The translations under genes were made by a program, and so were the position numbers. 43,560 bases of DNA from assembly GCA_031265875.1 (NCBI GenBank), contig JAISCA010000065.1, forward strand, positions 1 through 43,560. Reading direction: 5' to 3'. Source of the stretch: Propionibacteriaceae bacterium (lineage in GTDB: Bacteria; Actinomycetota; Actinomycetes; Propionibacteriales; Propionibacteriaceae). Below, piece by piece: positions 754 to 38,929 of this stretch (position 1 is the stretch's first letter; each line of letters opens with the position of its first letter). The notes below the pieces were generated by a model, which worked only from the letters and a program-made list of their open reading frames with translations, was not told the origin of the DNA and did no database searches.

Positions 754-1356
754 TCAGCACACACCTGTGATTTCTCGGAAGAAGCGTCCGCTAGGGCTAG
801 CGGCATCCAATAATTGAACCTGCCAATCCACCCCACCAGCGCTCGGATCGAAGTACGGGTAAAGAACCTGCACCAGTCGAACGATGGGATCGTCAGCGCT
901 GCCCACCTCACCCGCTGCCGCACCAAGGATGACCCCACCGTTCGCGATGGCCTCATTCAGGAGCGTCAACTCTCGTTGTAACCCTGGACAGTCGGGATAT
1001 GACTTCGGGTCGAATTGCGCCTCCACTGCGGTCGGGGAGCCGCTCGGGAGCACCCCCGACGTCGGGTCGACGTCACTCGGCGTCGTCTCCACCGGTGTGA
1101 CTGGGAAGGTGGTGGCTCCTGACCTCTCGCTGCTGCCCGCCGACGCCGGTGGAGTTATGGACGACGAGGTCGTGTTTGGTGGCTCACTGACACCGCCACA
1201 AGCGGTCAGGAACACGAGCGCACCAACACCTCCGACTAGAGCGACCACGAACCTGCGCCAGGCATTCGTTCTGATTGGTCTAATCTCCAGTGCCCGCTTA
1301 CCGTCGCATGACGCTAAGCGGCCGTCGTCGGCCTCCGTCCTCGGCCTCACTGACAA
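754..1356 (-). CDS. putative lipoprotein of unknown function
   Basis: About 200 residues. A basic stretch is followed by a hydrophobic segment ending in LVFLTAC-GG, a type II signal peptide with the lipobox cysteine near residue 53. A Ser/Thr/Pro-rich linker and a roughly 90-residue domain with two further cysteines (SYPDCPGL and the C-terminal GVC) follow. I do not recognise the domain. The ATG at 1356 overlaps the end of the LPXTG gene by 10 bp, but the N-region before the signal core is long for a lipoprotein, so the real start may be an internal non-ATG codon nearer the RTNAWRR segment. Its position suggests co-transcription with the surface genes upstream and an extracytoplasmic, membrane-tethered location. 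Confidence 0.65.
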   Translation of the reverse strand: MSVRPRTEADDGRLASCDGKRALEIRPIRTNAWRRFVVALVGGVGALVFLTACGGVSEPPNTTSSSITPPASAGSSERSGATTFPVTPVETTPSDVDPTSGVLPSGSPTAVEAQFDPKSYPDCPGLQRELTLLNEAIANGGVILGAAAGEVGSADDPIVRLVQVLYPYFDPSAGGVDWQVQLLDAASPSGRFFREITGVC

Positions 1357-2888
1357 GCCCGCTGAGGGGTCGGCAGCGAAGAGGACCGTCCAGCCAGAAC
1401 AGCCGAACCGGACAAGGCGATGACGGCCATACCTATGAGACCAACGGCCAGACCGACCGTCCCGGAACCGATCTCGGCACCGGTGGAAGGCAGAACCCCT
1501 CCACTAGCCGCGACCAGAACCTTGAAAGCACCCGACCACTGACCGGAGATGGAACCGGTCAATGTGATGGTGTGGTCGCCGGCCTCGAAGCCAACCGGCA
1601 CTAGGAAATCGAACACGACATCGCCGTTCGCGTCGGCCTGGACCTGGCCCAACTCCAACGGATCGGAGTGAACCACCCCAGTCACCGTCTCGCCAGGGAC
1701 GAAATTATGTCCGCCCACGGCTTGCCTATCACCAGGCCGCAACTCCAAAACGGACACCGCCAGATACGGCGCCTGGACGGTGACCGTCAGCGGAGCCGAC
1801 ACGTTACCAACGGAATCAGTCACAGTCAACACGACGGTCGAGCCGTCGGGTAGCGCCGGAACGGGACGACAAACGAACCGACCATCCTGATCCGCCGTCA
1901 CAGTCTCACAACCAGGCACCGGCACGTCCACGCCATCAGTGATGACGACCACACCACCCGGCACCGTCGTGCCGGCGACCTCGGCGCCATTGGTCGAACC
2001 GAGGGCCGGCGGAGCGGGCGGCCCCGCCACAAATGAGAACGGAACATAAATACCAGTGTCAAGATGCGTGTACGCCAGCACGTAGTCACCCGCCGTCCGC
2101 GACGTCAACGCGAACGAATACCGACCGCCGCCCAACTCAACCGCCGGCGACACCGACACATCAGTGGTGGAATGGAACGAATCCGCGTACCACACCTGCG
2201 CCCGGACGCTCGAGGCGGCATCCGTCAACGGATTGTTCTGCAGGTCCGTCAGGCGCATCACCGCCGTCCACGAGTCCACCCCGTCCGCAACCACCTGCGG
2301 TCCGCCACTAGTCGACTCCAGCGACACCAAGGTCTGGACTGGCCCACAAGTGACACCAGGGAAATAAATCCTCGCCGGCGCCGGCGAACCAGCCAACTCG
2401 ACCGGCTGCCCATTCACTTCGACTGTGGCATGCACCATCACATCCAGCCAGATGCAAACCTGCCCACTGACGTCAACCACCGCATGCCCATCGGCATCAG
2501 TTCTGACCACTGAGTTGCCGTCGATTCTTCCACCCCCATCGACCGAGAACCTCACCGGCACATCCACCATAGGATTCCCGGCACCATCGACCACCGTCGC
2601 CAAGGCGACCGCGTACACCCCTCCCATAGGACGAGCCCAATCCTCGCTCACCACCAGCGTCGAGGCCGACACATCCACCGTCGGGGCAGGTGCCACCGCA
2701 CTGGCCATCGACATCGCGGACAGACTCCCCGCCAGTGTGACCACGACCGCCGCCACAGCCGCGACCAACCGACTCCGCGTTTTAGCACCGCTTGAACTAG
2801 TTGAAGCGCTGCGGAACATCCGGCCCATATCTCGAACTTTCACCCCAGGAGCCACGCCACGACGATTGGGCGAATAATCATCACTCAT
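1347..2888 (-). CDS. LPXTG-anchored cell-wall surface protein with Ig-like repeats
   Basis: 513 residues from the ATG at 2888. There is a long basic N-region, a hydrophobic signal core (VAAVAAVVVTLAGSLSAMSMASA), then Ig-like beta modules: a bacterial Ig/invasin-type domain (ADGHAVVDVSG), a second near DLQNNPLTDAA, and a Big-type module with VTDSVGNVSAPLTVTV. The C terminus is a sortase sorting signal: LPSTG at about 466-470, a hydrophobic helix, then AGR. The family is expected to be covalently linked to peptidoglycan by sortase and to work in adhesion. The frame stays open upstream to 2972, but a perfect 15-bp hairpin (2923-2956) lies in that extension and fits better as the terminator of the preceding gene, so I favour 2888 (or ATG 2906). 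No sortase gene is in the window. Confidence 0.8.
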   Translation of the reverse strand: MSDDYSPNRRGVAPGVKVRDMGRMFRSASTSSSGAKTRSRLVAAVAAVVVTLAGSLSAMSMASAVAPAPTVDVSASTLVVSEDWARPMGGVYAVALATVVDGAGNPMVDVPVRFSVDGGGRIDGNSVVRTDADGHAVVDVSGQVCIWLDVMVHATVEVNGQPVELAGSPAPARIYFPGVTCGPVQTLVSLESTSGGPQVVADGVDSWTAVMRLTDLQNNPLTDAASSVRAQVWYADSFHSTTDVSVSPAVELGGGRYSFALTSRTAGDYVLAYTHLDTGIYVPFSFVAGPPAPPALGSTNGAEVAGTTVPGGVVVITDGVDVPVPGCETVTADQDGRFVCRPVPALPDGSTVVLTVTDSVGNVSAPLTVTVQAPYLAVSVLELRPGDRQAVGGHNFVPGETVTGVVHSDPLELGQVQADANGDVVFDFLVPVGFEAGDHTITLTGSISGQWSGAFKVLVAASGGVLPSTGAEIGSGTVGLAVGLIGMAVIALSGSAVLAGRSSSLPTPQRACQ

Positions 2889-2922
2889 CAACGGAAATCC
2901 CATCATTCGGTATTTTGAAGAG

Positions 2923-2956
2923 CTGGTGGGTTTGAATAAACATTCAAACCCACCAG
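2923..2956 (-). terminator. perfect 15-bp stem-loop after the metallopeptidase gene
   Basis: Arms 2923-2937 and 2942-2956 are exact inverted repeats with a 4-nt loop. The structure lies 28 bp past the peptidase stop codon on the minus strand, where a terminator would be expected. The trailing sequence has only a weak T-run (TTCAAAATA), so partial readthrough into the LPXTG gene is possible. Confidence 0.65.
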
Positions 2957-2984
2957 CATGAGAATCGAACACAGATACCAGCGG

Positions 2985-5141
2985 CTACGCCGTAGGTGTC
3001 GCAGTGAGTACGTAAGGATTAGCCGTCATGCTAGGACGTAAGTAGTAGGTCGTAATGGATAAGTAGACCGTACCGGCGCTGGCGGAAGTGTAGGTGAATG
3101 ACATCGGGCTGCTAGTTCCTGCGTAGCTGCCAAGCAGTAGCGCACGACCCTGGTACAGGGGACCGATCACTCCCACCCGCAACGAAGTACCGGTAGGGAA
3201 TGACCCAGTGATAGTCCAAGTGCCGGCTGCGGGCACAGTGACGGCGATCCAATCTTCATCACCAGAGAATTCGAGTCCCTTGGTGATTGATGATGATCCA
3301 CTCTCGTTCAACGTCCATGAACAAGACCCTTCAAGCACCGACGCGCAGTCATCGGCCGGATTCAATGTCGCAGTGACCGTGTACGGATCAGCGGTCACGC
3401 TTGTGGTAGCACTCACGTTGCTGATGTCCAGGAAGACCATTTCTCCGGCGATCAAAGTGGTCGAAACGATGAAATCGCCCCAACCAACGGCACCGTCATT
3501 GCCCCAGTAGAGCGTTGAGGTGTAGCCCCAGGGGAGGAATAGGACCTGGGCCTTCAGATCAGCTCCAGCCGGAGTCGCCGACGAAGTGAATGTCCACACT
3601 CCGGTGGCAGGAACAACGAACCCAATGAAGTCATGATCGCTCGGTGTAGCTAAACTCCTTGTGATCGTAGAAGGGCCAGTCGCACTCAAAACCCATGCGC
3701 AGTAGGACGTTATCGAGGCTCCACAATCATCTGCTCCCGTGACTGGTTGATTGACCGTCACATTCACCACAGCGTTATCACTGGTGACCGAAGTCACTGT
3801 CACCCGTATCTGTCCAGACGCGGAGACGAATGAATCGCTGGTTGACGCGTTACTCTGCGTCAAGAACTGATCTTGAACTCCGCCCCAAGAATTCTTCGTA
3901 TTCAGAGTTGGGCTAAGGAAAGCAGTCCTATCAGCGTTCGGATTGGGCGTTTCTGGATATACCCTGAGGATACGCACTCCGAGACCCTCACGGAATTCAA
4001 TTGAATACACGGCAGATGGATCCGTCGGGTCGATGATCTCGATTTCATTCAGACTAGAGTAGTCTTGATCCTCCAGTGGAACCAAAGTGAAGGATTGAGA
4101 GGATGGTGTCGACACTTCGGCCATACCAATGCCAGACTCGAGTAGACCCAACTCCGCTTTCCGATGGCCAGGCAAAGCTTGAAGATAACCACTACCCGGA
4201 CCCCCCATAATATCGTATGTATCATAGTAAAGCTCGTTAGTGCAAGTCGGTTGAGAGCCCGTGAAAGAACCATCATAAGTAGGCGCTGGACAAATTGCTT
4301 CCCCCGAGTGACCCAGCCCTAGATTATGACCAAATTCATGCTCAAACACCGGCGCGTAGCAAAAACCCCACAAGGCGGCGTTCGGATTCGTCGAGCCACA
4401 AGTGTAAGTCCCGCTAGGGGGATTGACTAAGAGTCTGGCATATCCGCCATTCGACAAACCCCGCGACGAAGGATAATTCGCCTGTCCCGCCATCGGCGAG
4501 CCCGTCAAACCCGGATCGTCGCTCCTGACGAGTATCAGCAAGTGCGATGTCGTTGGCCATGTAACAGGATCCGCTTGAAAGCCAGCCTCTGGGAACACCT
4601 GGGCAGCGTATGGCAACGCCCCATCGTATACCACACTCGTTTGTGTCTCCTCCCACAGAGTATAGTTCGCTGGCATTTGCCATGTGGCAACCCCATCATT
4701 CCAATCATAGGTGAAGCTATCGATGGCACCGTTAGTCTCGCGGTTCCAATACTGCCCAGCTCGCGGAATCAGCTGATCTAAATACGTCTGAGGAATGAAT
4801 GAATTTTTGCTTGCGATCGGCTGTGACGACATGTAAAGCACGTAGAAAGTGTGGATCACTCCGCTCCCAGATGTGATCGAATTCACAGAATTTCCCGACT
4901 CAACCGAACTCACTGAGTTTTCAGATGTGAACGAGCTAGACGACTGCACTGACGAATCCGTGAAACCTGAAGGGTCCGGGTACATCCCTTCAATGGTATC
5001 CGCAGTCGACATCGCCGCCTGCTCGCTGGGCGGAGCCGCCTGAGTTTGTGTCGGGGGGACGAACGCAGCAGCTCCAAGAACTAAAGCCACTGATAATAGG
5101 AATAGAAAGAAATAGCGTTTAGTGGTTCTGCTTTCAGTCAT
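2985..5141 (-). CDS. secreted zinc metallopeptidase (metzincin-like) with two C-terminal PPC-like domains
   Basis: 718 residues from the ATG at 5141, which has a GAGGGG ribosome site 11 nt upstream; the GTG at 5153 lies too close to it. Signal peptide: basic TKRYFF start, hydrophobic core to about residue 26, cleavage near TQTQA-APP. A Ser/Val-rich linker spans about 45-95. The catalytic region has the extended zinc motif HEFGHNLGLGH (H268, E269, H272, H278) and a downstream YDIMG Met-turn (M312), the metzincin hallmark. Several Cys residues (248, 261, 284, 300) could form disulfides. Two repeats beginning DDCGAS and DDCASV (about 475-590 and 600-718) resemble PPC (pre-peptidase C-terminal) beta domains. 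There is no LPXTG motif, so it is probably released. Substrate unknown. Confidence 0.85.
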   Translation of the reverse strand: MTESRTTKRYFFLFLLSVALVLGAAAFVPPTQTQAAPPSEQAAMSTADTIEGMYPDPSGFTDSSVQSSSSFTSENSVSSVESGNSVNSITSGSGVIHTFYVLYMSSQPIASKNSFIPQTYLDQLIPRAGQYWNRETNGAIDSFTYDWNDGVATWQMPANYTLWEETQTSVVYDGALPYAAQVFPEAGFQADPVTWPTTSHLLILVRSDDPGLTGSPMAGQANYPSSRGLSNGGYARLLVNPPSGTYTCGSTNPNAALWGFCYAPVFEHEFGHNLGLGHSGEAICPAPTYDGSFTGSQPTCTNELYYDTYDIMGGPGSGYLQALPGHRKAELGLLESGIGMAEVSTPSSQSFTLVPLEDQDYSSLNEIEIIDPTDPSAVYSIEFREGLGVRILRVYPETPNPNADRTAFLSPTLNTKNSWGGVQDQFLTQSNASTSDSFVSASGQIRVTVTSVTSDNAVVNVTVNQPVTGADDCGASITSYCAWVLSATGPSTITRSLATPSDHDFIGFVVPATGVWTFTSSATPAGADLKAQVLFLPWGYTSTLYWGNDGAVGWGDFIVSTTLIAGEMVFLDISNVSATTSVTADPYTVTATLNPADDCASVLEGSCSWTLNESGSSSITKGLEFSGDEDWIAVTVPAAGTWTITGSFPTGTSLRVGVIGPLYQGRALLLGSYAGTSSPMSFTYTSASAGTVYLSITTYYLRPSMTANPYVLTATPTA

Positions 5142-5180
5142 GACTAATAGCACCCCTCTTGGAGGTAAGGAGCGACAATA

Positions 5181-5252: not shown

Positions 5253-5422
5253 CCCCCAGACGTGAATTGACTTACGATCCAGATCCTGGCCGTCGCCCCC
5301 ACTAGCCCGTAAGCGCCGATCATGACTGCCACCGTCGTCGAACGAGCCGTCCGAACGCACGACCCGCCAAAAATATGGCTGTGACTAGTCGCTCGCGTCC
5401 ACGGCCTCGGCCGAACGGAAGG

Positions 5423-5450
5423 AGGGGCCAGCGGCACACCGCCAGCCCCT
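5423..5450 (-). terminator. possible terminator of the RLP operon
   Basis: AGGGGCCAGCGG and CCGCCAGCCCCT form an imperfect GC-rich hairpin 45 bp past the stop of the last operon gene. Two internal mismatches and no T-run make this only a weak call. The rest of 5253-5494 contains no gene I can support. Confidence 0.35.
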
Positions 5451-5494
5451 CACTACGAGATCTGGTCATACGGCCATGACCGCCGACCCCCGAC

Positions 5495-6280
5495 TCAACC
5501 CAGCAAATGCTGGGCCAGATACTTAGCCACTCCATCCTCAGCGTTGCTGGCGATGACCTCGTCGGCCATAGCCAAGGTGCGCTCGTAACCATTGGCCGGC
5601 ACCAGCACCCGGCCCATCAAGGCCAACCAACCACGATCATTGTCACCATCGCCGAAGCCCCAGCCGTCTTTACCGTCGACGCCGAGGTGCTGGAGCAAGA
5701 AAGCCATGGCGTCGCCCTTCGAGGCCCCGGGGGCCGAGACCTCGGTCAGGCGGTCCATCGAGCGTTCCAGGCCGACCTCTTCCTCCAGGGGCGGGCAGGC
5801 CCGGTCCAGGTCCTCGGCTGGGCCACCGCCCATGATCTTGACCACCGGTTGGCCGTCGATGATCGCCTCCAGGGGGCCGAATTGGATCTCGACCTGGTTC
5901 AAGTGCCCGATCAGCTGCGAGCCGACTGACTCCTCGCTGGCGTAGATGGCGTCCGCCGTCCACACCACCGGGTGCAGGCCGTGGCGGCGGATGGCGGCCA
6001 CGATGTCGTGCGCGGCCACCGGGTCCATCGCCTTGACCCAGAGCCGCTCACCGGAGACCGGGTCGGTCACCAAAGCCCCGTTGCAGCAGACCACCGGCGA
6101 GGTCAAGCCGGAGTCACGGGCGGTGCCCAGGGCCGACCGCTCGGCCCGGCCGGTGATGACGACCCCGGCCACGCCCAAGCCGGGCAACTGGGCCAGGACC
6201 TGACGGGTGTAGGCGCTGACCTGGTGGTCGGCGCCGGCCAGGGTGCCATCGACGTCGAAGGCAACCAACTTGGGTTTCAT
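5495..6280 (-). CDS. HAD-IIB (Cof-type) sugar-phosphate phosphatase, second of a tandem pair
   Basis: 261 residues from the ATG at 6278-6280, preceded by AAAGGAG at good spacing. Motif I is FDVDGTLAG (nucleophile D9, acid/base D11), motif II is VVITGR, motif III is the Lys in SKGDAM, and motif IV is GFGDGDNDRGW. The large C2-type cap between motifs II and III places it in HAD subfamily IIB, whose members mostly dephosphorylate sugar phosphates. Its start overlaps the stop of the upstream paralogue by 4 nt (ATGA), so translation is probably coupled. Last gene of the operon; the role is inferred as removing phosphate from a pathway intermediate or clearing a side product. The substrate cannot be predicted. 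Confidence 0.85.
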   Translation of the reverse strand: MKPKLVAFDVDGTLAGADHQVSAYTRQVLAQLPGLGVAGVVITGRAERSALGTARDSGLTSPVVCCNGALVTDPVSGERLWVKAMDPVAAHDIVAAIRRHGLHPVVWTADAIYASEESVGSQLIGHLNQVEIQFGPLEAIIDGQPVVKIMGGGPAEDLDRACPPLEEEVGLERSMDRLTEVSAPGASKGDAMAFLLQHLGVDGKDGWGFGDGDNDRGWLALMGRVLVPANGYERTLAMADEVIASNAEDGVAKYLAQHLLG

Positions 6281-7104
6281 GGGGTCTCCTTTGGGCTGGG
6301 TCGGTCCGGTTGGTCCAAGACCTGTTGGGCGATGTGACGGGCGACGGAGTCGTCGCTGTGGTGGCCGATGATCTGATCGGCCAAGGCTTTGACCCCAGGC
6401 CGGGCGTTGGCCGGGACGACCGCCCAGCCCAAGCTGGACAACCAACCGATGTCATTGTCCGAGTCGCCGAAGCCCCAGGCCTGGTCCGGGCCGAGTCCGA
6501 GCCGGTCCAAGACGAAGGCCAGGGCCGCTTCTTTGGAGACGCCGTCGGCGACCGCGCCGTAGAAATCCGGCATCGAGCGCACCAAGGCCGGACAGGCCGC
6601 CTCCAGTGCGGGACCGATCTGATCCAAGCGCTCCGGACTGGCCCCCAACATGACCTTGACCAACGGCGTCTGGGCCACGACCTGGTCCAGCGGACCCCAA
6701 CAGGCCGCCTGGCCGAGGATGTCGGCGATGATCTGGTTGGACTGGTCCGGCGCTTCGGCGTACCAGTCGTCCAGGCCGAACAGGGTCGGGCTGAGGCCGA
6801 ACCGCCGCCCGGCCGCCAGAGCCTGTTCGACCTCGACTGTCGTCATCGGCTGGACCGACATCCGGCTCCCGGAGACCGGGTCGGTCACGACGGCCCCCTC
6901 GTAGGAGATGACCGGAGCGGTCAGCCCGAGGGAACGGGCTATCTCAAGCACTGACCGCTCCGGGCGACCCGAAATGATGACGCCGGACACCTCGGCCCCG
7001 GCCAACTGGCTGACGATCTGACGGCTGTAAGCCGAGACCAGACCGTCCTCACCGGCCAAGGTGCCGTCGATGTCCAGCGCCACCAAAGCGGGTCGTTCAG
7101 GCAC
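6277..7104 (-). CDS. HAD-IIB (Cof-type) sugar-phosphate phosphatase, first of a tandem pair
   Basis: 275 residues from a GTG at 7104, nine bases after the kinase stop codon. Motif I LDIDGTLAG (D11, D13), motif II VIISGR, a Lys in SKEAAL, motif IV GFGDSDNDIGW. It is clearly paralogous to the gene at 5495-6280 along its length (shared TDPVSG, WGFGD, VVPAN blocks), indicating local duplication. The cap regions differ, so the two may have diverged in substrate. Family knowledge: Mg2+-dependent cytoplasmic phosphatases acting through an aspartyl-phosphate. The GTG start has GGAG only two bases upstream, so the exact start is uncertain; no better in-frame candidate is visible before the phosphatase motif. 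Confidence 0.83.
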   Translation of the reverse strand: MPERPALVALDIDGTLAGEDGLVSAYSRQIVSQLAGAEVSGVIISGRPERSVLEIARSLGLTAPVISYEGAVVTDPVSGSRMSVQPMTTVEVEQALAAGRRFGLSPTLFGLDDWYAEAPDQSNQIIADILGQAACWGPLDQVVAQTPLVKVMLGASPERLDQIGPALEAACPALVRSMPDFYGAVADGVSKEAALAFVLDRLGLGPDQAWGFGDSDNDIGWLSSLGWAVVPANARPGVKALADQIIGHHSDDSVARHIAQQVLDQPDRPSPKETP

Positions 7105-7113
7105 CGCTCCAGC

Positions 7114-8679
7114 CTACTCGGCGTACTTCGACTGGAAAGCGGAGATCGACTTGTAAACCCCACCGGAGGCCAGCGACTTGTAGACCTGGCGGAAGATGCC
7201 GAAGATCTCGTCGTAGCGCTCCCCCACGGCCTCGTTCGGCTCGTAGGTGCTGGTGACCTGGACCATCGAGTCGACCGCCTCGCCCATGGAGGAGAAGACG
7301 CCGGCCCCGACCGCGCCCAGCATGGCGGCGCCCAGGACGGCGCACTCGCCCTCCTTCAGGGCCTGGGTCGGACGACGGTAGATGTCGGTTTGGATCTGGC
7401 ACCAGAGCGGAGACTTGGTGGCCCCGCCGGACAGCCGGATCTCGTCCACCTGGGTGCCCATGCCGGTGAAGGTGTCGAGGATGTCGCGCATCTCGAAGGC
7501 CACACCCTCCATGACCGCCCGGGCCATCGCGCCGGTGCCGTGGGTCAAGGTCAACCCGAGGAAGCCGCCCCGGGCCTCAGCGTCGAAGTTGGGCGTCTGC
7601 GAACCGGCCAGATAAGGCATGTAGAGCAGGCCCTGGGAGCCGGCCGGAACCTTGTCCGCCATCCGGTTGAGGATGTCGAAGTCGACGTCGCCGCCCAACA
7701 TCTGAACCATCCGGCCGATGTAACCGACCTTGTCCCTGAACCAGCGGTAGCTGGCGGCGGCGGCGTTGGTCAGGCCTTCGGCCACCCACTTGCGCTCGCC
7801 GGCGATGGCCGAGGCCTCACAGGCGATGGCGCAACCGGGGTCGAAACGGGGCTCGTCGTAGTGGGCGATGGCCACGCCGGAGGTGCCCAGGGTGACCTCG
7901 GCCACACCGGTGGCCACGACACCGGCCCCGACCGCGCCGCAAGCTTGGTCGCCGCCGCCGGTCACCAGCGGGGTGCCCTCGGCCAGACCGGTCCGGGCCG
8001 AAGCCTGGGCGTCGACCACGCCGACCTGGGTGCCGGAGGGCACCAGGGTGGACAACAGCGACAGATCGATGCCCATCTTGGCGCACAACTCAGCGTCCCA
8101 CTCGAAGGTGCGGGCGTTCATCAAGCCGAAGAGGGAACCGTTGGGATAGTCCTGATACCAACCATCCTTGGCCCCCATCTCGTGCAGGAACCACTCTTGG
8201 GTGTTGAGGACGCGGGCGGTGCGGGCGAAGACCTCGGGCTCGTGCTTCTGCATCCACATGATGTGCGGCGCCGACCACACCACCGAAGGTGGCATGCCGG
8301 TGGTCTGGTAGTAATACTCGGTGCCCAACTCGTTGCGGATCCAGTCGACTTCGGCCGCGCAACGGGCGTCCTGCCAGCTCAGGCCCATGCCGTCGCGCAG
8401 CAAGCGGCCCTGGGCGTCGATGTAAAGGTGGAGGGCGCGCTGGGTGGAGAAACCGATCGACTTGATGTCCTTGGGGTTGACCCCGGACTTCTCGATCGCC
8501 TCGCGCAAGACTTCCTCGTTGGAGCGGGACAGCATGTTGATGTCCTGCTCGACCCAGCCGGGCTGGGGGTAGACGCAACCGTACTCACGGTAGGCCTCCG
8601 CCATGATGGCGCCGGTCAGGTCGTAAACCTTGGCTTTGACGCCAGTGGTGCCAGTGTCTATACCGATGACATAGTTCAT
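7114..8679 (-). CDS. FGGY-family carbohydrate kinase (xylulokinase/ribulokinase-like)
   Basis: 521 residues, the normal FGGY length, from an ATG with AAAGGAG 8 nt upstream. The N-terminal ATPase-fold half opens with IGIDTGTTGVKA (phosphate 1), has SWQDARC near residue 100 and GGGDQACGAVGAG near 245. The C-terminal half contains TLGTSGVAIAHY and RLSGGATKSPLWCQ (adenosine loop). The family phosphorylates ketoses or polyols with ATP. Among named members it looks closest to the xylulose/ribulose group, but I cannot assign the sugar. Genes on both sides (AraM-like dehydrogenase, HAD phosphatases, RLP) make it the likely entry kinase of the pathway, producing a mono-phosphate. No sugar transporter is encoded nearby. 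Confidence 0.88.
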   Translation of the reverse strand: MNYVIGIDTGTTGVKAKVYDLTGAIMAEAYREYGCVYPQPGWVEQDINMLSRSNEEVLREAIEKSGVNPKDIKSIGFSTQRALHLYIDAQGRLLRDGMGLSWQDARCAAEVDWIRNELGTEYYYQTTGMPPSVVWSAPHIMWMQKHEPEVFARTARVLNTQEWFLHEMGAKDGWYQDYPNGSLFGLMNARTFEWDAELCAKMGIDLSLLSTLVPSGTQVGVVDAQASARTGLAEGTPLVTGGGDQACGAVGAGVVATGVAEVTLGTSGVAIAHYDEPRFDPGCAIACEASAIAGERKWVAEGLTNAAAASYRWFRDKVGYIGRMVQMLGGDVDFDILNRMADKVPAGSQGLLYMPYLAGSQTPNFDAEARGGFLGLTLTHGTGAMARAVMEGVAFEMRDILDTFTGMGTQVDEIRLSGGATKSPLWCQIQTDIYRRPTQALKEGECAVLGAAMLGAVGAGVFSSMGEAVDSMVQVTSTYEPNEAVGERYDEIFGIFRQVYKSLASGGVYKSISAFQSKYAE

Positions 8680-8768
8680 ATCGAAGCTCCTTTGCTCAGA
8701 TCAGGTTTTGTTCAGGTGGCCTGGCGGCCCGCCCTGGGTCCACGTCAGGCCTTATCTAGTCCTATTTG

Positions 8769-10196
8769 TTATTTGTCGTACGGAGCGATCAGACCGTAGT
8801 AGGTCTCGAAGACGCCGTCCAAGAACTCCTCCGTCCACAGTCCGGCGAAGCCCAGCACGTCGGCCACGGAGGTGCGCTTGCGCATCAGGCGAGCGTTGGT
8901 GAAGGCCCAGCGGGCCCGCTCCTCGGTGATCCCGGTCGGGATGGCGGTGAAGCGCAAGGGGTGGCCGGTGGCGGCCAGGGCGGCCACGTAGGCCTCCGGC
9001 TTGGGGGCCAACCGGCGCAACTCGGCCCGCAGGTCGTCCCACCGGCTCAGCGCCGCCTTGATCTGGTCGCGCCCGCGCCGCCAGGCTTCGATCTTGGCCG
9101 AGTAGTCATTCCAGCACTCGCCCCAGGTCTCGCCCGTAGCGTCCAAGAAGCCGAAGGCCCGTTCGACCTTGGCCTTCTCAGCCTGATCGTCGATGCCATC
9201 CGGGTCGAGACCGGACAGGTCGGCCTGGTCGATCAACTTGTCGAAGGCGATCAAGGACAAGATGGCGGCCAGACCGCACTGGGAGCCATGGTTGCCGACC
9301 GGGCGGTGGTCGTATTCGGCCGACATGTCCAGGGTGTGGCTGGTGACGTGCTCCAGCCCCGACAGCGGGGCCGACTCGCCGGCGAAGCCGATGGCCAGAC
9401 CGGTGGCGGCCAGATCCTGGGCGATGGCCCCCATCTTGGCTGGCGTGTGCGGGCCCAGCACCGGGTCGCGAACCAGCATCCGGTTCATCGAGAAGGTCAT
9501 CGTCTCCAAGCTGAGCGGCTCCCACTTGCCCAGGCCGAGCCGGTGGCCGAGCAGGTAGTCGGCGAAGGAGACGGCCGCCACGGCGGCGTCGCCGATGCCG
9601 CCGTCGGTGTAGGGCCCAGGCGCGTCGAAGAGCAACTGGGTGTCGATGACCAAGGCGTCGGGCAGACGCGATGGCAAGGTTCGCTTGACGCGACCGAAGG
9701 TGATGGGCGCTTGATCGGAGGTGTAGGCGCAGACCGAGTTGGCGGTCTGGACTGTGACCAGCCTCAGTTCAGGGTTGCCCTTGGCCTCGTACTCGAAGAC
9801 GCCGTGCTTGGCCAAATCGGTGATGGTGCCGGAGCCGAGCGACAGCACCGTCAAACCGGGCCTAAGCGCGGCTTCGACCTCGCCGATGTGGAGCGGCGTG
9901 GTGTGGAGTTCGTGGTCGTCGCTCAGCACCAGGATCTGGACCGCGCAGCCGGCTTGGCGCAGGGCCTCAGCCAACATCGGTTTGATCGACTGACCGGCCC
10001 GCTTGATGTCGGTGAGGTCCTGGACGATCAAGACGTCGGCCCGATCGCGCCCGTCCAGCACCACGCGCACGACCTCCTGCAAGGCCGTGTCCGACATCAC
10101 GATTTCTTTCATACGCTGGTCGCGGCGCCGCCCGGCCAACAGGCTCATGTGATCGTAGAACCCGTCCAGCGGGCCCGGGGTCAGTTCATAACTCAT
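8769..10196 (-). CDS. sn-glycerol-1-phosphate dehydrogenase-like (AraM/EgsA) metal-dependent oxidoreductase
   Basis: 475 residues from the ATG at 10194-10196 (AAGGAAG upstream). The fold is iron-containing alcohol dehydrogenase/dehydroquinate synthase type. The NAD(P) loop is LGSGTITDLAK (121-130), as in AraM. Candidate metal ligands are D203 (GGIGD), a His in LEHVTSH (H283/H287) and H303 (NHGSQCG), the Asp-His-His pattern of glycerol-1-phosphate dehydrogenases. It is longer than Bacillus AraM, with extra helical sequence after about residue 340. Family knowledge: interconverts DHAP and glycerol-1-phosphate. In this operon a different phosphorylated polyol or ketose is equally possible. It follows an AraL-like phosphatase, the same order as araL-araM in the Bacillus subtilis arabinose operon. 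Confidence 0.82.
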   Translation of the reverse strand: MSYELTPGPLDGFYDHMSLLAGRRRDQRMKEIVMSDTALQEVVRVVLDGRDRADVLIVQDLTDIKRAGQSIKPMLAEALRQAGCAVQILVLSDDHELHTTPLHIGEVEAALRPGLTVLSLGSGTITDLAKHGVFEYEAKGNPELRLVTVQTANSVCAYTSDQAPITFGRVKRTLPSRLPDALVIDTQLLFDAPGPYTDGGIGDAAVAAVSFADYLLGHRLGLGKWEPLSLETMTFSMNRMLVRDPVLGPHTPAKMGAIAQDLAATGLAIGFAGESAPLSGLEHVTSHTLDMSAEYDHRPVGNHGSQCGLAAILSLIAFDKLIDQADLSGLDPDGIDDQAEKAKVERAFGFLDATGETWGECWNDYSAKIEAWRRGRDQIKAALSRWDDLRAELRRLAPKPEAYVAALAATGHPLRFTAIPTGITEERARWAFTNARLMRKRTSVADVLGFAGLWTEEFLDGVFETYYGLIAPYDK

Positions 10197-10231
10197 GTCG
10201 GACTTCCTTGTCGAACTTGTCGAAACTTCAC

Positions 10232-11059
10232 TTATAGAAGCGGGGCGGCCAGCAGGTCGATGCGCTCTAGGACGTAGTCGGGCAGAGCGGCGACGGGGAA
10301 TTGGTCGAGCTCGTCCAGAGCGGTGTCCCCGGTCAGGACCAGGGCCGTCTTGGTGCCGGCGGCGATGCCCATGGCGATGTCGGTGCGGATGCGATCGCCC
10401 ACCATGACGGCGCGCTCGACCGGCACGCCGAGCAGGCTGAGGGCGGTCGTCATCATGGTCGGGCTGGGCTTGCCGATGACGAGCTCGCATTGGCGCGAGG
10501 TGCAAGCCTCGATGGCGGCCGTGATGGCGGCCGCGTCCGGTTCGCCCCGCCCGCCCGGGAAGGGGCAGTACATGTCGGGGTGGGTGGCGATGAAGCGGAC
10601 CTGGGGCCGGTTGCGCAAGGCGTCGAAAGCGGTCTGCAGCTTCCAGTATTCGAAGGTGCGGTCGTAACTCGACACCACCAGGGTGATCTCCCCCGGGTCC
10701 TTCGACAGCTTGACCCCCCGCATCCTCAGCTCCTCCAGCAGAGGCGGCTCACCGCAGACGAAGCAGACCGCGTCGGGCAGGTTCTGATTGATCCAGGCCG
10801 CCGTCAGGGTGCCCGAGGTGACGACGTCGTCCTCAGTGGCGGACAGACCCAACCGGTTCAGCTTCTCGGCGTACTCGCCTCTCGTCCTAGTCGGATTGTT
10901 GGTCACGAAAGCCCGCTTACGCCCGGCCTGGGCGATGGCGTCCATCAGCTCAGGCACGCCCGGCAACAAGCCGGAGCCGAGGTAGATGGTGCCATCCATG
11001 TCGAAGAGGTAGGCGTCATAGTCTTCCGTCACCTGGGCGGTGACTTCTTTCGTAGGCAT
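10232..11059 (-). CDS. HAD-IIA sugar-phosphate phosphatase (NagD/AraL-like)
   Basis: 275 residues from the ATG at 11059 with AAGGAG 8 nt upstream. Motif I LFDMDGTIYLG (D20, D22), then FVTNNPTRTR (motif II plus the typical NagD Asn-Asn-Pro), cap domain containing YDRTFEYWKL, motif III Lys in VIGKPSP, motif IV MVGDRIRTDIAMG and TALVLTG. These are diagnostic of HAD-IIA. AraL and NagD members dephosphorylate sugar phosphates, often broadly. Here it is the second gene of the RLP operon, separated from the RLP gene by 139 nt containing a long hairpin, and is followed 35 nt later by the AraM-like gene. The substrate is not predictable from sequence. Confidence 0.86.
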   Translation of the reverse strand: MPTKEVTAQVTEDYDAYLFDMDGTIYLGSGLLPGVPELMDAIAQAGRKRAFVTNNPTRTRGEYAEKLNRLGLSATEDDVVTSGTLTAAWINQNLPDAVCFVCGEPPLLEELRMRGVKLSKDPGEITLVVSSYDRTFEYWKLQTAFDALRNRPQVRFIATHPDMYCPFPGGRGEPDAAAITAAIEACTSRQCELVIGKPSPTMMTTALSLLGVPVERAVMVGDRIRTDIAMGIAAGTKTALVLTGDTALDELDQFPVAALPDYVLERIDLLAAPLL

Positions 11060-11130
11060 TGGGGTGCTCCTTGGCTGGGGTCGTCGGACTGGGGTCGAGC
11101 CGGGGATCGGCGGGCTGGCTATCTGGCTAT

Positions 11131-11191
11131 GGTCAAGCGACCAGCGGCGGCTCGACCGGATGGCTCGGTCGACCGCCCTGGTCGCTTGACC
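11131..11191 (-). other. long intercistronic stem-loop after the RLP gene
   Basis: GGTCAAGCGACCA (11131-11143) and TGGTCGCTTGACC (11179-11191) are perfect 13-nt inverted repeats. The inner sequence GGCGGCTCGACC/GGTCGACCGCC extends the pairing with a single bulge. It starts 7 bp after the RLP stop codon and lacks a T-run. I read it as an mRNA processing/stability element or attenuating terminator that would raise RLP relative to the downstream genes. Confidence 0.6.
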
Positions 11192-11198
11192 TGATGGC

Positions 11199-12515
11199 TC
11201 AGCCCTTGAGGTCGAAGATGCCGGTCGCGCCCTCTTGGTAATAACCCCAAGCTTCCAGAGCCGACGCCAACTCCGGGTGCTGGAGAGCGGCCTGGTCGGT
11301 CTTGACGCCGGCCAGAGTGGCGGCGATGGCTTGCCGGAAGGCCTTGGCGCCAGCCCGCGGGCCCATCGGGTGGGCGTGGATGCCAGCCCCGGAGGCGATG
11401 ATGACGTCATTGCCGAACTTGGTCATGACATCCTCGACGTGCCCCTGGGTGGTGCCGCCGCCCGGCATCGGCCAGACCGGCTTGATGTGGCCGAGCGGTT
11501 GCAGCATCTTGTAGCCGCCGTCGACGAAGGTGTCCATCATCATCGGGAACTTGCCGTAGGGGGTCAAGGCGATGATCATGTCGACACCGGCCAGCCGGGG
11601 CAGCTTGGCGCCGATCAGACCGGACGACATGCCCGACCAGGGCGACTCGGAGACCGCGCCGCAATAGTCGGAATGGCCCAGGATCGGCACGTTGATGTTC
11701 TCGTCCTCGGTGATCATGCGAGTGGAGTCCAAGCCAGCCGTGTTGTAGTTGATCAAGAGGCAATTGGCGCCGGCTTCCAAGGCCCGATAGGCGTTACGCC
11801 GCATTTGGTCGGGGCCGGAGGTGATATTGAAGGCGTAAAGGGTCTTCTCGCCCTTCTCCTCATCGGCCCGCTTGAGCGCCGCCATGACCGCTTTGACGCG
11901 GTCCTCCAGCGGGCAATAGACCGGGTCGGTGACCAATTCGTCGTCTTTCAGGATGTCGACCCCACCGACGGCGGACTCGAAGGCCAGCTTGGCGGTCTCC
12001 TCCGGCGACAGGCCGGTGCAGGGCTTGATCATGTTGTTGAGCAGCGGACGATCGTAGACGCCGAGCAGCTGACGCACGCCGGGGACGCCGAACTTGGGGC
12101 CCTTGAAATGCTCCAGGAAGGAGGCCGGCCACTCCAGATCGACCAGTTTGACCTTGCCAGACGAGGAGATGTTGCCGATCACGGTGGTGAACATCATGGC
12201 GAACTCGGGTCCGAAGTTGGCCCAGGGGTAGGCGATCCGGCAGATGAAGTGGCGCTCGGTGATGTCCGAGGGCAGACCGATCTGGTAGCTGGGCGTCTCA
12301 TACACCCCGACTAGACGTCCGACGCAGCGCTCCCGGACCTCTTCGGTCTCGCCCGGCACCTTGGTCCAAGTGCCGCAGGTCTGCTCGATTCCCAGCGCCG
12401 CCGCGAACCGGATGATGTTCGTCTGCGGCTTCACCGCACAGTAATAGGTCGCGATCACGAAACGATCGCGATCCAACGCCTCCGGATACTGCATAATGAT
12501 CGGATCGATGAACAT
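11199..12515 (-). CDS. RuBisCO-like protein (form IV-type RLP), first gene of a catabolic operon
   Basis: 438 residues, ATG at 12515 preceded by AGGAG. RuBisCO large-subunit fold. By motif alignment to spinach numbering it keeps E60 (E44), T65-W66 (GTWT, 49-50), N123 (N115), K175 (K164 in IKPC), the carbamate/Mg triad K201-D203-E204 (K190, D192, E193 in ILKDDEL), H294 (H281), K334 (K322 in YGKF), G380-G381 and G403. It has lost K177 (Cys), R295 (Ser282), H298 (Cys), H327 (Ile), S379 (Gly) and G404 (Ala). So the metal site and one phosphate site look intact while the residues of the second phosphate site are gone, as in known RLPs (MtnW enolase, Rhodospirillum RLP isomerase, the apionate-pathway enzymes). 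CO2 fixation is very unlikely; enolisation, isomerisation or decarboxylation of a mono-phosphorylated sugar is the reasonable inference. Confidence 0.9.
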   Translation of the reverse strand: MFIDPIIMQYPEALDRDRFVIATYYCAVKPQTNIIRFAAALGIEQTCGTWTKVPGETEEVRERCVGRLVGVYETPSYQIGLPSDITERHFICRIAYPWANFGPEFAMMFTTVIGNISSSGKVKLVDLEWPASFLEHFKGPKFGVPGVRQLLGVYDRPLLNNMIKPCTGLSPEETAKLAFESAVGGVDILKDDELVTDPVYCPLEDRVKAVMAALKRADEEKGEKTLYAFNITSGPDQMRRNAYRALEAGANCLLINYNTAGLDSTRMITEDENINVPILGHSDYCGAVSESPWSGMSSGLIGAKLPRLAGVDMIIALTPYGKFPMMMDTFVDGGYKMLQPLGHIKPVWPMPGGGTTQGHVEDVMTKFGNDVIIASGAGIHAHPMGPRAGAKAFRQAIAATLAGVKTDQAALQHPELASALEAWGYYQEGATGIFDLKG

Positions 12516-12620
12516 GGACTCTCCTATTTGTGACGCTCGCCTGAATGGCGCGATAACACGACTCCCCTGTCATCATCTGATCGAACCGCTCTGGTCGACT
12601 GTGACCCCACGGAGCCTTTC

Positions 12621-12632
12621 TGACGTTCGTCA
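12621..12632. promoter_or_regulatory. candidate SorC-type operator half-site 1 (TGACGTTCGTCA)
   Basis: Near-palindromic TGACGTTCGTCA contains ACGTTCGT, the reverse complement of the ACGAACGT found at 12681-12688 and in front of the SorC gene at 22781-22788. It lies about 110 bp upstream of the RLP start. Assignment to that regulator is a hypothesis. Confidence 0.35.
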
Positions 12633-12678
12633 AGTTAGTCAGGCCGCCTGCCCTCCGCAAGACCGCTTCGACCCCTCT

Positions 12679-12690
12679 GCACGAACGTCC
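12679..12690. promoter_or_regulatory. candidate SorC-type operator half-site 2 (GCACGAACGTCC)
   Basis: GCACGAACGTCC differs from the reverse complement of the site before the SorC gene (GGACGAACGTGC at 22779-22790) only in the central AA/TT. It lies about 165 bp upstream of the RLP start and 58 bp from the first site. Functional role inferred. Confidence 0.35.
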
Positions 12691-12899
12691 CCCGCCCATC
12701 GAAGGGATGGAATTCCGATCAGGGAGGGTATTTTCCAACCCCACTGGACCGGTCCGAGGCTCGTCGACCGGCCAACCCCGTGAACGGATGTGCAAAAATT
12801 AAGGATAGATGTGAACGCCCGCTCGGAGGCCGGGTGGGCCTTCCGCAGCCCTTCCCGGCCGAATTCAACGGCCCAGCGGTCAGATCACAGATCTAGAAG

Positions 12900-12950
12900 C
12901 CCCAAAAAGTGTCCTCCCTCCGCTACGCTCCGGTCCGGTACTTTTCGGGG
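12900..12950 (-). terminator. possible terminator of the YihX-like HAD gene
   Basis: CCCCAAAAAGT (12900-12910) and ACTTTTCGGGG (12940-12950) pair over 11 positions with one G-T type mismatch and a 29-nt loop. It lies 39 bp past the stop of the gene ending at 12989. No T-run follows on the minus strand, so it is a weak call. Confidence 0.4.
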
Positions 12951-12988
12951 ACCCCGAGAAATCGAAACTCGGCTCATTCGTCGAAGTT

Positions 12989-20071: not shown

Positions 20072-21586
<1,515 letters not shown>

Positions 21587-21677
21587 TTGCTGATTCCTCC
21601 ACATCGTTGGGGTTGAGGGTTGTAGGGCTCCCCTACGGGAATGGCCCCAGGTTACAGCGGTGTACCAGTGATTGGAA

Positions 21678-21719
21678 CCGTGACGCCGCGGCCACCGCTG
21701 CGCGACCGCGACGTCACGG
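21678..21719 (-). other. intercistronic stem-loop between glpF and glpK
   Basis: CCGTGACG-C-CGCGG (21678-21691) pairs with CCGCG-A-CGTCACGG (21706-21719), one mismatch, 14-nt loop, starting 6 bp after the glpF stop. There is no T-run. Like the hairpin after the RLP gene, it probably adjusts relative expression of the two cistrons or stabilises the upstream mRNA. Confidence 0.5.
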
Positions 21720-21725
21720 CTTCGG

Positions 21726-22526
21726 TCAAGGCAGCAACACGCCCGAGGCGAAGCCGGCCGCCAGGCCGCCGATGATCGGGCCGACCACCGGCACCCAGGC
21801 GTAAGCCCAGTCCGAGCCGCCCTTGTTCGGCGCCGGCATGATGGCGTGCCAGAGGCGCGGCGCCAGGTCGCGGGCGGGGTTGATGGCGTAACCGGTCGGC
21901 CCGCCCAGAGAGGCGCCGATGCCGACGATCAAGAGGGCCACGCCCAAAGCGCCCAGCCAGCCCAAGCCGCCCGGGGTGCTAGTGGCCGAGTCGCCCCAGT
22001 GGCCGGCCGCCAAGACGATGAAGACCAGGACGAAGGCGCCCAAAGCCTCAGTCACGACGTTCCAGCCGTAGCTCCGGATGGCCGGGCCGGTGGCGAAGAC
22101 GCCGAGCTTGGCGCCGTCGGGCTGTTCGATGTCGAACTGCTTCTTGTAGGTCAGCCAGGCCAGGGCCGCGCCGATGAAGGCGCCCAGCAGTTGGGCGCCG
22201 ATGTAGACGCCGATGCTGGCGGCGTTGATGGCGATGCCGGGTACGAACTCTGGGTTCTCAGTCCCGGCTTTGGAGGCCACCACACCGAGTGTGACGGCCG
22301 GGTTGAGGTGACCGCCGGACTTGTAGGAGGCCAGGACGCCGGCGAAGACGGCCAAGCCCCAGCCGAAGTTGACGACGAGCCAACCGGCGTCTTTGGCCTT
22401 GCTGCCGTTCAAGGAGACGGCGCAGCAGACGCCGGCGCCGAGGAGCAGCAGGATGGCGGTGCCGACCGTCTCAGACAAAAATATCGTTGCCAGAGTGATG
22501 TCGACCGGCGGTGGGTCTATGAGCAT
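21726..22526 (-). CDS. glpF: glycerol uptake facilitator (aquaglyceroporin)
   Basis: 266 residues, MIP family. Six predicted membrane helices and the two NPA half-helices: GGHLNPAVT after the second helix and [13 protein letters not shown] after the fifth. The Asp after the second NPAR and the small residues nearby fit a glycerol-conducting channel rather than a water-only aquaporin. Facilitated diffusion of glycerol into the cell for trapping by GlpK. First gene of the glpF-glpK pair, divergent from the SorC regulator with a 281-bp shared control region. Confidence 0.94.
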
Positions 22527-22542
22527 TGGATACTCACTCTCC

Positions 22543-22560
22543 GACGTCTATCCAGACGTC
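22543..22560. promoter_or_regulatory. inverted repeat upstream of glpF
   Basis: GACGTC (22543-22548) and GACGTC (22555-22560) are self-complementary 6-mers flanking TATCCA, so the element forms an 18-bp palindrome 17 bp upstream of the glpF start codon, overlapping the leader. Possible operator or leader hairpin; no established consensus is matched. Confidence 0.35.
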
Positions 22561-22758
22561 ATTCGATGGATGTGCCCAGGCCGGAGGGTTTCGACCTGGC
22601 AGCCAGCTCTCGTAGAGCCACGCCAAAGGTGGACGTCGAACGAGGCCGGGACCGACTCACCGTCGCGCCCGGCTGCACGCTCTGTTGCCACGCCCGCTCC
22701 TTTGTGCACCGTGATCTCCCGTGATCCCCGGCTTTATCCCCTAATCTTGCGAACCAAC

Positions 22759-22790
22759 GCACGAATGCGCTAGGAATTGGACGAACGTGC
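22759..22790. promoter_or_regulatory. candidate SorC operator: two direct repeats 20 bp apart
   Basis: GCACGAATG (22759-22767) and GGACGAACG (22779-22787) repeat in the same orientation with start-to-start spacing of 20 bp, two helical turns. The second copy extends to GGACGAACGTGC. The site lies directly before the SorC ribosome site, suggesting autoregulation and control of the divergent glpF. ACGAACGT recurs in the RLP promoter region. Inference only. Confidence 0.4.
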
Positions 22791-22807
22791 AGACGCGGGA
22801 GGTACCA

Positions 22808-23758
22808 ATGCACGCGCGCTACGAAGAGATGTACGAGGCGGCTATCCGCTATTACATCCACAACGAGACTATGGAATCGATCGCTCGCCATCTCCAGGTC
22901 TCCCGCTCGTCGGTCTCACGCCTGTTGGCGGAGGCCCGTCGCTCCGGCCTGGTGCGCATCTCGCTGGCCTCGGAGGTGGGCTCACGCTCGCCCGTGGCCA
23001 GGGCTTTGTCCGAGGCTTTCGGCGTCACCGTCCATCTGGTCTCGGTGGGCGACTCCGCCCCCATCTCGACCCGCTTGGAGCGGGTCTGCCGGCTGGCCGC
23101 CTCGCTCTTGGCCGAGTCCGTCTCGGACGGCTCCCTGATCGGCGTGGCCTGGGGCGTGACGATGGCCAACACGGTGCGCTACGTCGAACGCCGGCCGCTG
23201 CGCGACGCCTTCATCGTCCAGATGAACGGCGGCAACAACGCCCAGGACACCTCCGCCTTCTACGTCGGCACCGTCCTGCAGCCCCTGGGCGACGCCTTCG
23301 ACGCCCGCGTCATCCACTTCCCGGTGCCGGCCTTCTTCGACTACGCCGCCACCAAGCAGGCCATGTGGCGGGAGCGCTCGGTCCGGGCCGTGATCGACTA
23401 CCAGAACCGGCTCGACCTGGCCATCTTCGGCATCGGCGCCATCCACGGCCGGGTCCCCTCCCACGTCTACTCGGCCGGCTACGTCGAGCCCGAGGACATG
23501 ACCCAGGCCGCCGCCGACGGCGTGGTGGGCGACGTCTGCACCGTCTTGCTGCGTGAGGACGGCTCTTTCGCCGACATCGCCTTGAACAGCCGCGCCACCG
23601 GCTTGACCCCGGCCGACATGCAGCGCATCCCGGTCCGGATCGGCGTGGTGGCCGACCCCTCCCGGGCCTCGGCCCTGCTGGGCGCGCTGCGGGCCAAGAC
23701 CATGACCGACCTGATCTGCGACGACACCACCGCCCACGCCGTCTTGGAACGCCTCTGA
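22808..23758 (+). CDS. SorC/DeoR-family sugar-responsive transcriptional regulator
   Basis: 316 residues from the ATG at 22808 with GGGAGG 5 nt upstream; a GTG at 22787 lies within the putative operator. The N-terminal helix-turn-helix (about 8-50) reads YIHNETMESIARHLQVSRSSVSRLL. The C-terminal SorC effector domain (about 60-316) has LIGVAWGVTMANTVR, VQMNGGNN, LAIFGIGAIHG and GVVGDVC, the phosphosugar-isomerase-like fold that binds a phosphorylated effector in this family. Divergent to glpF-glpK, so glycerol-3-phosphate or a related phosphorylated sugar is the likely effector. Shared sequence motifs suggest it could also act on the RLP operon. Confidence 0.9.
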   Translation: MHARYEEMYEAAIRYYIHNETMESIARHLQVSRSSVSRLLAEARRSGLVRISLASEVGSRSPVARALSEAFGVTVHLVSVGDSAPISTRLERVCRLAASLLAESVSDGSLIGVAWGVTMANTVRYVERRPLRDAFIVQMNGGNNAQDTSAFYVGTVLQPLGDAFDARVIHFPVPAFFDYAATKQAMWRERSVRAVIDYQNRLDLAIFGIGAIHGRVPSHVYSAGYVEPEDMTQAAADGVVGDVCTVLLREDGSFADIALNSRATGLTPADMQRIPVRIGVVADPSRASALLGALRAKTMTDLICDDTTAHAVLERL

Positions 23759-38853: not shown

Positions 38854-38929
38854 GCCACCTTAGCTCAGTCGGCAGAGCTCCCGCCTTGTAAGCGGACGGT
38901 CATCGGTTCGAATCCGATAGGTGGCTCCA
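38854..38929 (+). tRNA. tRNA-Thr (anticodon TGT)
   Basis: Full cloverleaf: acceptor GCCACCT/AGGTGGC, D-stem GCTC/GAGC, anticodon loop CTTGTAA with TGT at 38887-38889, T-arm ATCGG-TTCGAAT-CCGAT, discriminator T and an encoded CCA (38927-38929). The anticodon stem has one C-A mismatch at its top pair. Decodes ACA (and other ACN by wobble). Confidence 0.93.

Follow-up and report, generated by a model that had tools for sequence, protein, structure and literature searches.

What does a RubisCO-like protein (RLP) do when it heads a gene row otherwise composed of a kinase, a dehydrogenase-like enzyme and phosphatases? This question is raised by a six-gene operon in the 43,560-nucleotide stretch of DNA analysed here (the window), from a gut actinobacterium of the Propionibacteriaceae. 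The genes occupy positions 12515-5495 of the minus strand and encode, in order, the RLP, a HAD-IIA phosphatase, an enzyme related to AraM and glycerol-1-phosphate dehydrogenase (G1PDH), an FGGY carbohydrate kinase and two HAD-IIB phosphatases; the gene identities and order given in the original prediction were borne out by family scans and coordinates. To our knowledge, few RLP reactions have been established. The reading favoured here, to which somewhat less than an even chance is given, is that the six genes specify a pathway for polyol or ketose phosphates with a member of an uncharacterised RLP clade at its centre, in which the RLP would shift the carbonyl of a ketose 1-phosphate.

In the proposed pathway, the FGGY kinase would phosphorylate a terminal position of a linear polyol with a chain longer than that of glycerol, and the divergent AraM-like NAD(P) enzyme would oxidise the carbon adjoining the phosphate, generating a ketose 1-phosphate. 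The RLP would hold this monophosphate in the site equivalent to the C1-phosphate site of RubisCO and abstract the C3 proton, so that a 2,3-enediolate would form and the carbonyl would be moved along the chain, giving a ketose phosphate usable by central metabolism. The three HAD phosphatases would hydrolyse products or overflow phosphates. The substrate, the order of the steps, the RLP reaction and the role of the HADs are what we infer in this scheme.

The RLP (11199..12515, 438 aa) belongs to the RubisCO superfamily as a form IV member (PF00016, RuBisCO_large, 175.5 bits vs a curated cut-off of 30.1), and its resemblance in sequence to RLPs of solved structure settles the fold. The HAD-IIA phosphatase (10232..11059, 275 aa from an ATG start, the mechanical open reading frame being longer) matched PF13344 and PF13242 and was assigned at the subfamily level by TIGR01460 (130.5 bits, above its cut-off). 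The AraM-like enzyme (8769..10196, 475 aa) represents a divergent subfamily (PF13685, 49 bits; PDB match 9h4x, E 3.5e-19), and it is followed by the FGGY kinase (7114..8679, 521 aa; PF00370, 182 bits; PF02782, 113.5 bits). The HAD-IIB phosphatases, 45% identical to each other, lie at 6277..7104 (275 aa, GTG start; PF08282, 135.8 bits; motifs DIDGT and GFGDSDND) and 5495..6280 (261 aa; PF08282, 132.7 bits; motifs DVDGT and GFGDGDND). The longer mechanical frames were used in the family scans of the HAD-IIA, AraM-like and second HAD-IIB proteins. From the RLP to the first HAD-IIB gene the intergenic distances are 139, 35, 89 and 9 bp, and the HAD-IIB pair overlaps by 4 bp; based on this short spacing, the six genes are probably co-transcribed.

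The same order was found in a sister genome (G006, Propionibacteriaceae bacterium) on contig L019, which ends within the first HAD-IIB gene. Amino acid identity between the two genomes is 95% for the RLP, 95% for HAD-IIA, 90% for AraM and 97.5% for FGGY, and the corresponding dN/dS values (ratio of NG86 dN and dS, covering the first four genes) are 0.08, 0.07, 0.15 and 0.03. This identity together with the low dN/dS demonstrates that the four frames are real, conserved and under purifying selection. An RLP match at E<=0.001 was obtained in 12 of the 57 genomes searched, the window's own included, and among 18 other genomes of the window genus G006 alone had one; the operon is therefore an accessory unit.

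The original prediction set the operon apart from the RLP pathways it named, and the comparison with OiaX and MtnW agrees: the scores of the RLP fall below the NCBIfam equivalog cut-offs for OiaX (224.6 vs 700 bits) and for both MtnW models (285.6 vs 513.6 and 332 vs 409 bits). In a tree of 113 rows (108 different, the duplicates being the same gene fetched twice, e.g., L017/L098, L006/L101 and L007/L102), built by a quick method with SH-aLRT support only, the window RLP and that of L019 group with the Acetobacterium locus L023 (support 93). Around them lies a nine-row set (support 95) from Bacillota, Synergistota and the window genus, every row of which comes from a locus with an FGGY gene, two loci contributing two rows each. 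The OiaX-like RLPs of plasmids form a separate clade (support 100) with one unlabelled actinobacterial gene, and the MtnW row sits on a long branch of unsure placement. The nearest RLPs outside the genus are 77% identical and, where the host is stated, belong to Bacillota; since the window RLP is nested among Bacillota and Synergistota, its transfer into Propionibacteriaceae is likely. The clade is carried by isolates of Eubacterium barkeri, E. aggregans, Lactonifactor longoviformis and Sporomusa.

An alignment to a form I enzyme was used to locate the active-site positions, which were then counted in 82 clade rows; residue numbers and roles are taken here to follow spinach RubisCO. E60, W66, K175, K201, D203, E204 and H294 are conserved in 82/82 rows, N123 in 81 (E in one), K334 in 81 (one gap) and T65 in 79 (S in three). 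K177 is replaced by C in all rows and R295 by S, M, L, P, T or V in all rows; H327 became V, I or L in 81 (one gap), and S379 is retained in 21. The window RLP itself has lost residues of ribulose bisphosphate carboxylation (K177C, R295S, H327I, S379G). Judged from the alignment, the site for the second (C5) phosphate of RubisCO is mostly lost and the metal-carbamate site, K175 and the loop-6 lysine are intact. The loss of the C5-phosphate contacts with retention of the carbamate site and loop-6 lysine makes it likely that the substrate is a monophosphate with its phosphate beside the carbonyl, i.e., a ketose 1-phosphate or similar.

The same residues also leave room for an RLP that, like OiaX, decarboxylates a keto-acid or ketose monophosphate, or that carboxylates it, in an operon that handles a sugar acid or adds CO2. 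E60, N123 and K334, which we take to be the CO2-handling residues of RubisCO, are kept almost throughout the clade, and an OiaX copy likewise retains K334 where an MtnW copy has S; because the E60/K334 pair is kept, CO2 chemistry is possible for this clade. However, the OiaX-like RLPs adjoin an acid-sugar kinase in 7/7 plasmid records inspected, whereas the kinase here is an FGGY, a family of alcohol and ketose kinases. The operon contains neither an acid-forming dehydrogenase nor a PF07005 acid-sugar kinase (the sole PF07005 match in the genome is on another contig), and the OiaX score is far below its cut-off. Kinase plus RLP is a theme of sugar catabolism that OiaX (3-oxo-isoapionate-4-phosphate decarboxylase) and its relatives share with this operon, but the difference in kinase, clade and score renders a decarboxylase improbable.

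The neighbours of related RLPs bear on the proposed polyol- or ketose-phosphate pathway. A survey was made of 79 loci, obtained from the best 80 of 199 matches; many of the stretches end at contig ends, so that counts of neighbours are lower bounds. An FGGY homolog was found at 31 loci (at 22 within 500 bp of the RLP on the same strand), homologs of PF09370/UPF0261 at 33, both at none and neither at 15. The carbonyl-forming partners of the RLP vary in kind, which is counted in favour of the pathway: AraM occurs in the window and L019; G1PDH in L043, with the RLP and XylB; GlpA, GlpB and DUF1667 in L021, L022, L023, L034, L035 and, outside the 79, L226; and GlpA/GlpB/GlpC-like proteins in L082, L090, L095 and, lacking FGGY, L212. 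A galactitol-family phosphotransferase system (PTS, EIIC-GAT) is encoded in L046 and L212, where FGGY was not found, and an aquaglyceroporin in L090 and L095. A kinase or a polyol PTS thus recurs beside these RLPs, in part with a dehydrogenase. In L226 one strand carries triosephosphate isomerase (TIM), GlpA, GlpB, DUF1667, two FGGYs, a protein without Pfam match, the RLP and phosphofructokinase (PFK), and this row suggests a feed into glycolysis. At L045 the FGGY resembles rhamnulokinase (241 bits, below cut-off) and is accompanied by a class II aldolase and by an ABC transporter whose binding protein is of the sugar type; SorC-type regulators were found in 32 of the 79 loci. Taken together, these neighbours point to polyols and ketoses as substrates.

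Some RLP loci showed further features. In L021 and L022 the RLP is present twice; the copies lie about 6 kb from each other, score equally or nearly so against the window RLP and each have an FGGY downstream. A 280-aa protein beside RLP-FGGY in L020-L022, for which the L021 copy gave no Pfam or PDB match, looks by eye like a membrane protein. In the window genome itself, L098 (G000:C28, 7032-12220) holds a second RLP, 49% identical, flanked by a GlpK of a divergent clade and a further FGGY; the contig ends in a GlpC-like gene.

The composition of the loci varies with lineage. In Actinomycetota, 22 loci were fetched of the 54 non-own genomes with a match, and FGGY was present in 20 of them: in all 20 relatives at 44-49% identity (19 within 500 bp on the same strand, 14 with a saccharopine-dehydrogenase-like gene) and in neither of the two at 39% (L229) and 35% (L230), which also lack the PF09370/UPF0261 module. 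The RLP is partnered by an aminotransferase or a saccharopine-dehydrogenase-like enzyme in archaea, Chloroflexota and deep Actinomycetota; both kinds interconvert amine and carbonyl. Archaeal and Chloroflexota loci L064, L072, L073, L075, L081, L085 and L097 carry RLP-FGGY with a class III aminotransferase (L073 and L075 also with class I), and in L087, L089 and L096 a saccharopine-dehydrogenase-like gene stands in its place.

The other common arrangement, with PF09370 and in most cases UPF0261, was observed in L024-L029, L031-L033, L050-L059 and L101, never with FGGY among the 79 loci; some of the PF09370 loci carry a 2-phosphosulfolactate-phosphatase-like or PHP gene. PF09370 and UPF0261 are bacterial families related to the two domains of Tm-1, an antiviral protein of plants. 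UPF0261 is described as uncharacterised in one report (PMC5028733). With labels assigned by hand, PF09370/UPF0261 changes 7 times on the tree and FGGY+Glp 6 times, and switches occur also between RLPs about 70% identical to the window RLP. These repeated switches, even among similar RLPs, suggest that the two modules are two ways of serving one enzyme. It can be further proposed, more doubtfully than the pathway of the window itself, that the clade catalyses a reaction not yet described for the RubisCO superfamily, in which the carbonyl of a ketose 1-monophosphate is transposed (or the compound reversibly decarboxylated), and is the hub of a pathway across Actinomycetota, Bacillota, Synergistota, Chloroflexota and archaea, with FGGY/dehydrogenase and PF09370/UPF0261 modules as interchangeable feeds. 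More generally, the presence of clade relatives in many anaerobes suggests an undescribed handling of phosphorylated sugar alcohols.

Several observations weigh against the favoured pathway. E60, N123 and K334 are not obviously needed by a plain isomerase, and the CO2 chemistry they would allow counts on the same side. The 33 loci with PF09370/UPF0261 have no kinase, and the 15 remaining ones have neither module. Of the FGGY loci, 10 of 31 encode a GlpA-type (8) or G1PDH/AraM-type (2) dehydrogenase, with 14 showing an aminotransferase III or saccharopine-dehydrogenase-like partner (>=100 bits) and 7 none, and the AraM/G1PDH linkage is confined to two lineages. The logic of kinase, oxidoreductase and RLP advanced in the original prediction therefore recurs in part, and the other 21 FGGY loci are devoid of a GlpA- or G1PDH/AraM-type gene. 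In Bacillota, the phylum of L043, 17 of 21 matches were fetched (several from genomes already among the earlier loci, e.g., L214 and L069), with PF09370/UPF0261 in 9, FGGY in 3, neither in 5 and both in none. To these are added the abundance of FGGYs in the genome, a strong hairpin between the RLP and HAD-IIA genes that could uncouple their expression, and the lack of any transporter family in the adjoining genes that were checked.

The FGGY abundance and the hairpin would also agree with an explanation in which the six genes do not form one pathway, the RLP being solitary and the HADs and the FGGY-AraM pair having become its neighbours by transfer. The window genome has 20 FGGY_N matches, and a random 20-kb stretch of it would hold an FGGY in about 12% of cases (a simple estimate); the FGGY-RLP link rests on its recurrence across genomes. 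Both genomes with the RLP operon also carry an FGGY-AraM pair with no adjoining RLP (L111, G000:C68, 8944-12066; L112, G006:C50, 6798-9831), and because of this recurrence the pair can be viewed as a module in its own right. Among the loci fetched, the window and the sister genome alone showed exactly this combination of genes. The hairpin (11131..11191, minus strand) has a 26-bp stem and no T-run, with a fold of -55.2 kcal/mol for 11100-11200, a value without a shuffle control; a comparable one lies 3' of the RLP gene in L019. It is possibly an RNA-stability or attenuation element, and since it separates the RLP from HAD-IIA, the RLP may be expressed differently from the remaining genes. On the other hand, FGGY-RLP linkage recurs across several phyla, L043 combines RLP, G1PDH and XylB, and in the sister genome the order is kept with four genes under purifying selection. 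Such an unrelated neighbourhood is judged as improbable as a decarboxylase. As for the HADs, HAD-IIB homologs accompany the RLP in L037 (45 bits) and L095 (68 bits), and HAD-IIA homologs do so in L047 (129 bits) and L213 (86 bits), which is weakly suggestive that the HADs belong to the RLP theme.

The window FGGY, unassigned to a subfamily, reaches none of the listed NCBIfam cut-offs (best XylB, 340.7 vs 380.25 bits; GlpK, 222.8 vs 590.35 bits); its nearest relative outside the genus in an alignment of 34 FGGYs, from L094, is 41% identical, and it shares 23% identity with the window's own GlpK. The AraM-like enzyme scores 86.9 bits against PRK00843 (cut-off 413) and has all of the motifs GD, EH and HG, which we take to be the metal-ligand motifs of AraM and G1PDH. 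The Asp of the S(M/V)DG motif, present in five other homologs compared, is replaced by Cys; the paralogs on C68 and C50 have Cys or Gly at this position with the metal-ligand motifs kept. The GlpKs adjacent to RLPs (in C28, L082, L090 and L095) form their own clade (support 100/100) and pass the GlpK model in the three of four that were scored; in this clade the Phe of the GTGCF motif has changed to Val. In GlpK, Phe270 packs glycerol. The Phe to Val change and the loss of Asp in the window AraM fit substrates other than glycerol.

These residues are relevant to the alternative that the RLP acts on triose phosphates, in a metabolism of glycerol or glycerol-1-phosphate around dihydroxyacetone phosphate (DHAP). 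Such a role would be in line with the GlpK, aquaglyceroporin and GlpABC-like genes that adjoin the RLP in Sporomusa (L090, L095), the GlpK beside it in L082 and in contig C28, the TIM gene in the L226 row, the membership of AraM in a DHAP/glycerol-1-phosphate family and the class II aldolases at some RLP loci, these aldolases being ketose 1-phosphate lyases. The RLP-linked GlpKs, however, are a separate clade with an altered glycerol pocket, the window AraM is without the usual Asp, and the window FGGY is distant from the window's own GlpK. The residue changes in the RLP-linked GlpKs weaken a glycerol pathway without eliminating it, and the triose alternative is considered marginally less probable than the two preceding ones.

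Methionine or 5-deoxyribose salvage, with the RLP as an MtnW or DeepYkr-type enzyme, is very unlikely despite MtnW providing the best NCBIfam model and the best PDB matches, since both MtnW cut-offs are missed, N123 is retained where MtnW has K, the operon holds no methionine-salvage gene and mtnA (TIGR00512) had no match in this 99%-complete genome (9/14 control genomes were positive).

Among known systems, MtnW (the Bacillus subtilis-type 2,3-diketo-5-methylthiopentyl-1-phosphate enolase) is represented by the closest curated model and solved structures and uses a monophosphate, but E60, N123 and K334 differ and its plasmid copy has methionine-salvage neighbours, unlike the window RLP. The FGGY kinase EryA, the glycerol-3-phosphate-dehydrogenase-like EryB and the isomerase EryC act in erythritol-type pathways, and the order proposed here is similar, from an FGGY kinase through a glycerol-phosphate-dehydrogenase-like step to isomerisation of a ketose phosphate; the RLP would replace the isomerase, and the window AraM stands in place of the flavin enzyme. 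In B. subtilis, araL and araM belong to the arabinose operon. The resemblance to that operon pointed out earlier holds only at the family level, with a HAD-IIA beside an AraM-family enzyme and an FGGY kinase; AraA and AraD are missing from the window operon, AraM diverges at its Asp motif and the FGGY does not reach any of the listed cut-offs. In its proposed type of reaction, the window RLP would resemble the DeepYkr RLP known from R. rubrum and R. palustris, a 5-methylthioribulose 1-phosphate 1,3-isomerase performing carbonyl transposition on a ketose 1-phosphate in a pathway with MtnP, MtnA and a cupin, according to its description (PMC5893883). None of these three partners is encoded in the window operon.

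No description of the RLP-FGGY-AraM gene set was recognised among the papers listed in the literature searches, in which coverage of subscription papers was thin; a RubisCO-superfamily enzyme is found here in a new metabolic setting. An actinobacterial RLP with an epimerase-like neighbour has been reported, and its closest relatives, one of them in a model acetogen, are called functionally unknown in that paper (PMC7325909). If a RubisCO relative does move carbonyls along ketose 1-phosphates, this would be a general isomerase chemistry with a bearing on the origin of RubisCO. The FGGY and PF09370/UPF0261 modules, never together, offer a functional lead for PF09370 and UPF0261, and were they indeed interchangeable feeds, both families would gain a place in sugar-phosphate metabolism. 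The clade has neighbours that recur and is available in isolates, and its candidate substrates form a short list.

Around the operon, the 473-bp upstream intergenic region (12516..12988, minus strand), alignable to L019 only in part, is presumed to contain the promoter; a consensus scan gave no sigma-70 match in it, and promoter and terminator scans produced matches at chance level. A hairpin with a 13-bp stem 3' of the last gene (5422..5451, minus strand), found by folding and absent from the consensus scan results, has no long T-run and is a possible terminator. In an Rfam scan at gathering scores the sole match was a tRNA at 38854, with no riboswitch or other known RNA. The operon adjoins a ribosomal-protein/rpoA block (L17, RpoA, S4), from which it is separated by a HAD-IA gene and a glycosyltransferase. 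Downstream (1347-5153) lie a 541-aa protein containing bacterial Ig-like domains and a frame of 722 aa for which Pfam gave no match. Within the ribosomal-protein region, near secY-adk-map and rpoA, positions 20072-23758 contain glpK (minus strand), an aquaglyceroporin gene (minus strand) and a divergent SorC/DeoR-type regulator (plus strand), and regulators resembling the latter border many RLP loci elsewhere.

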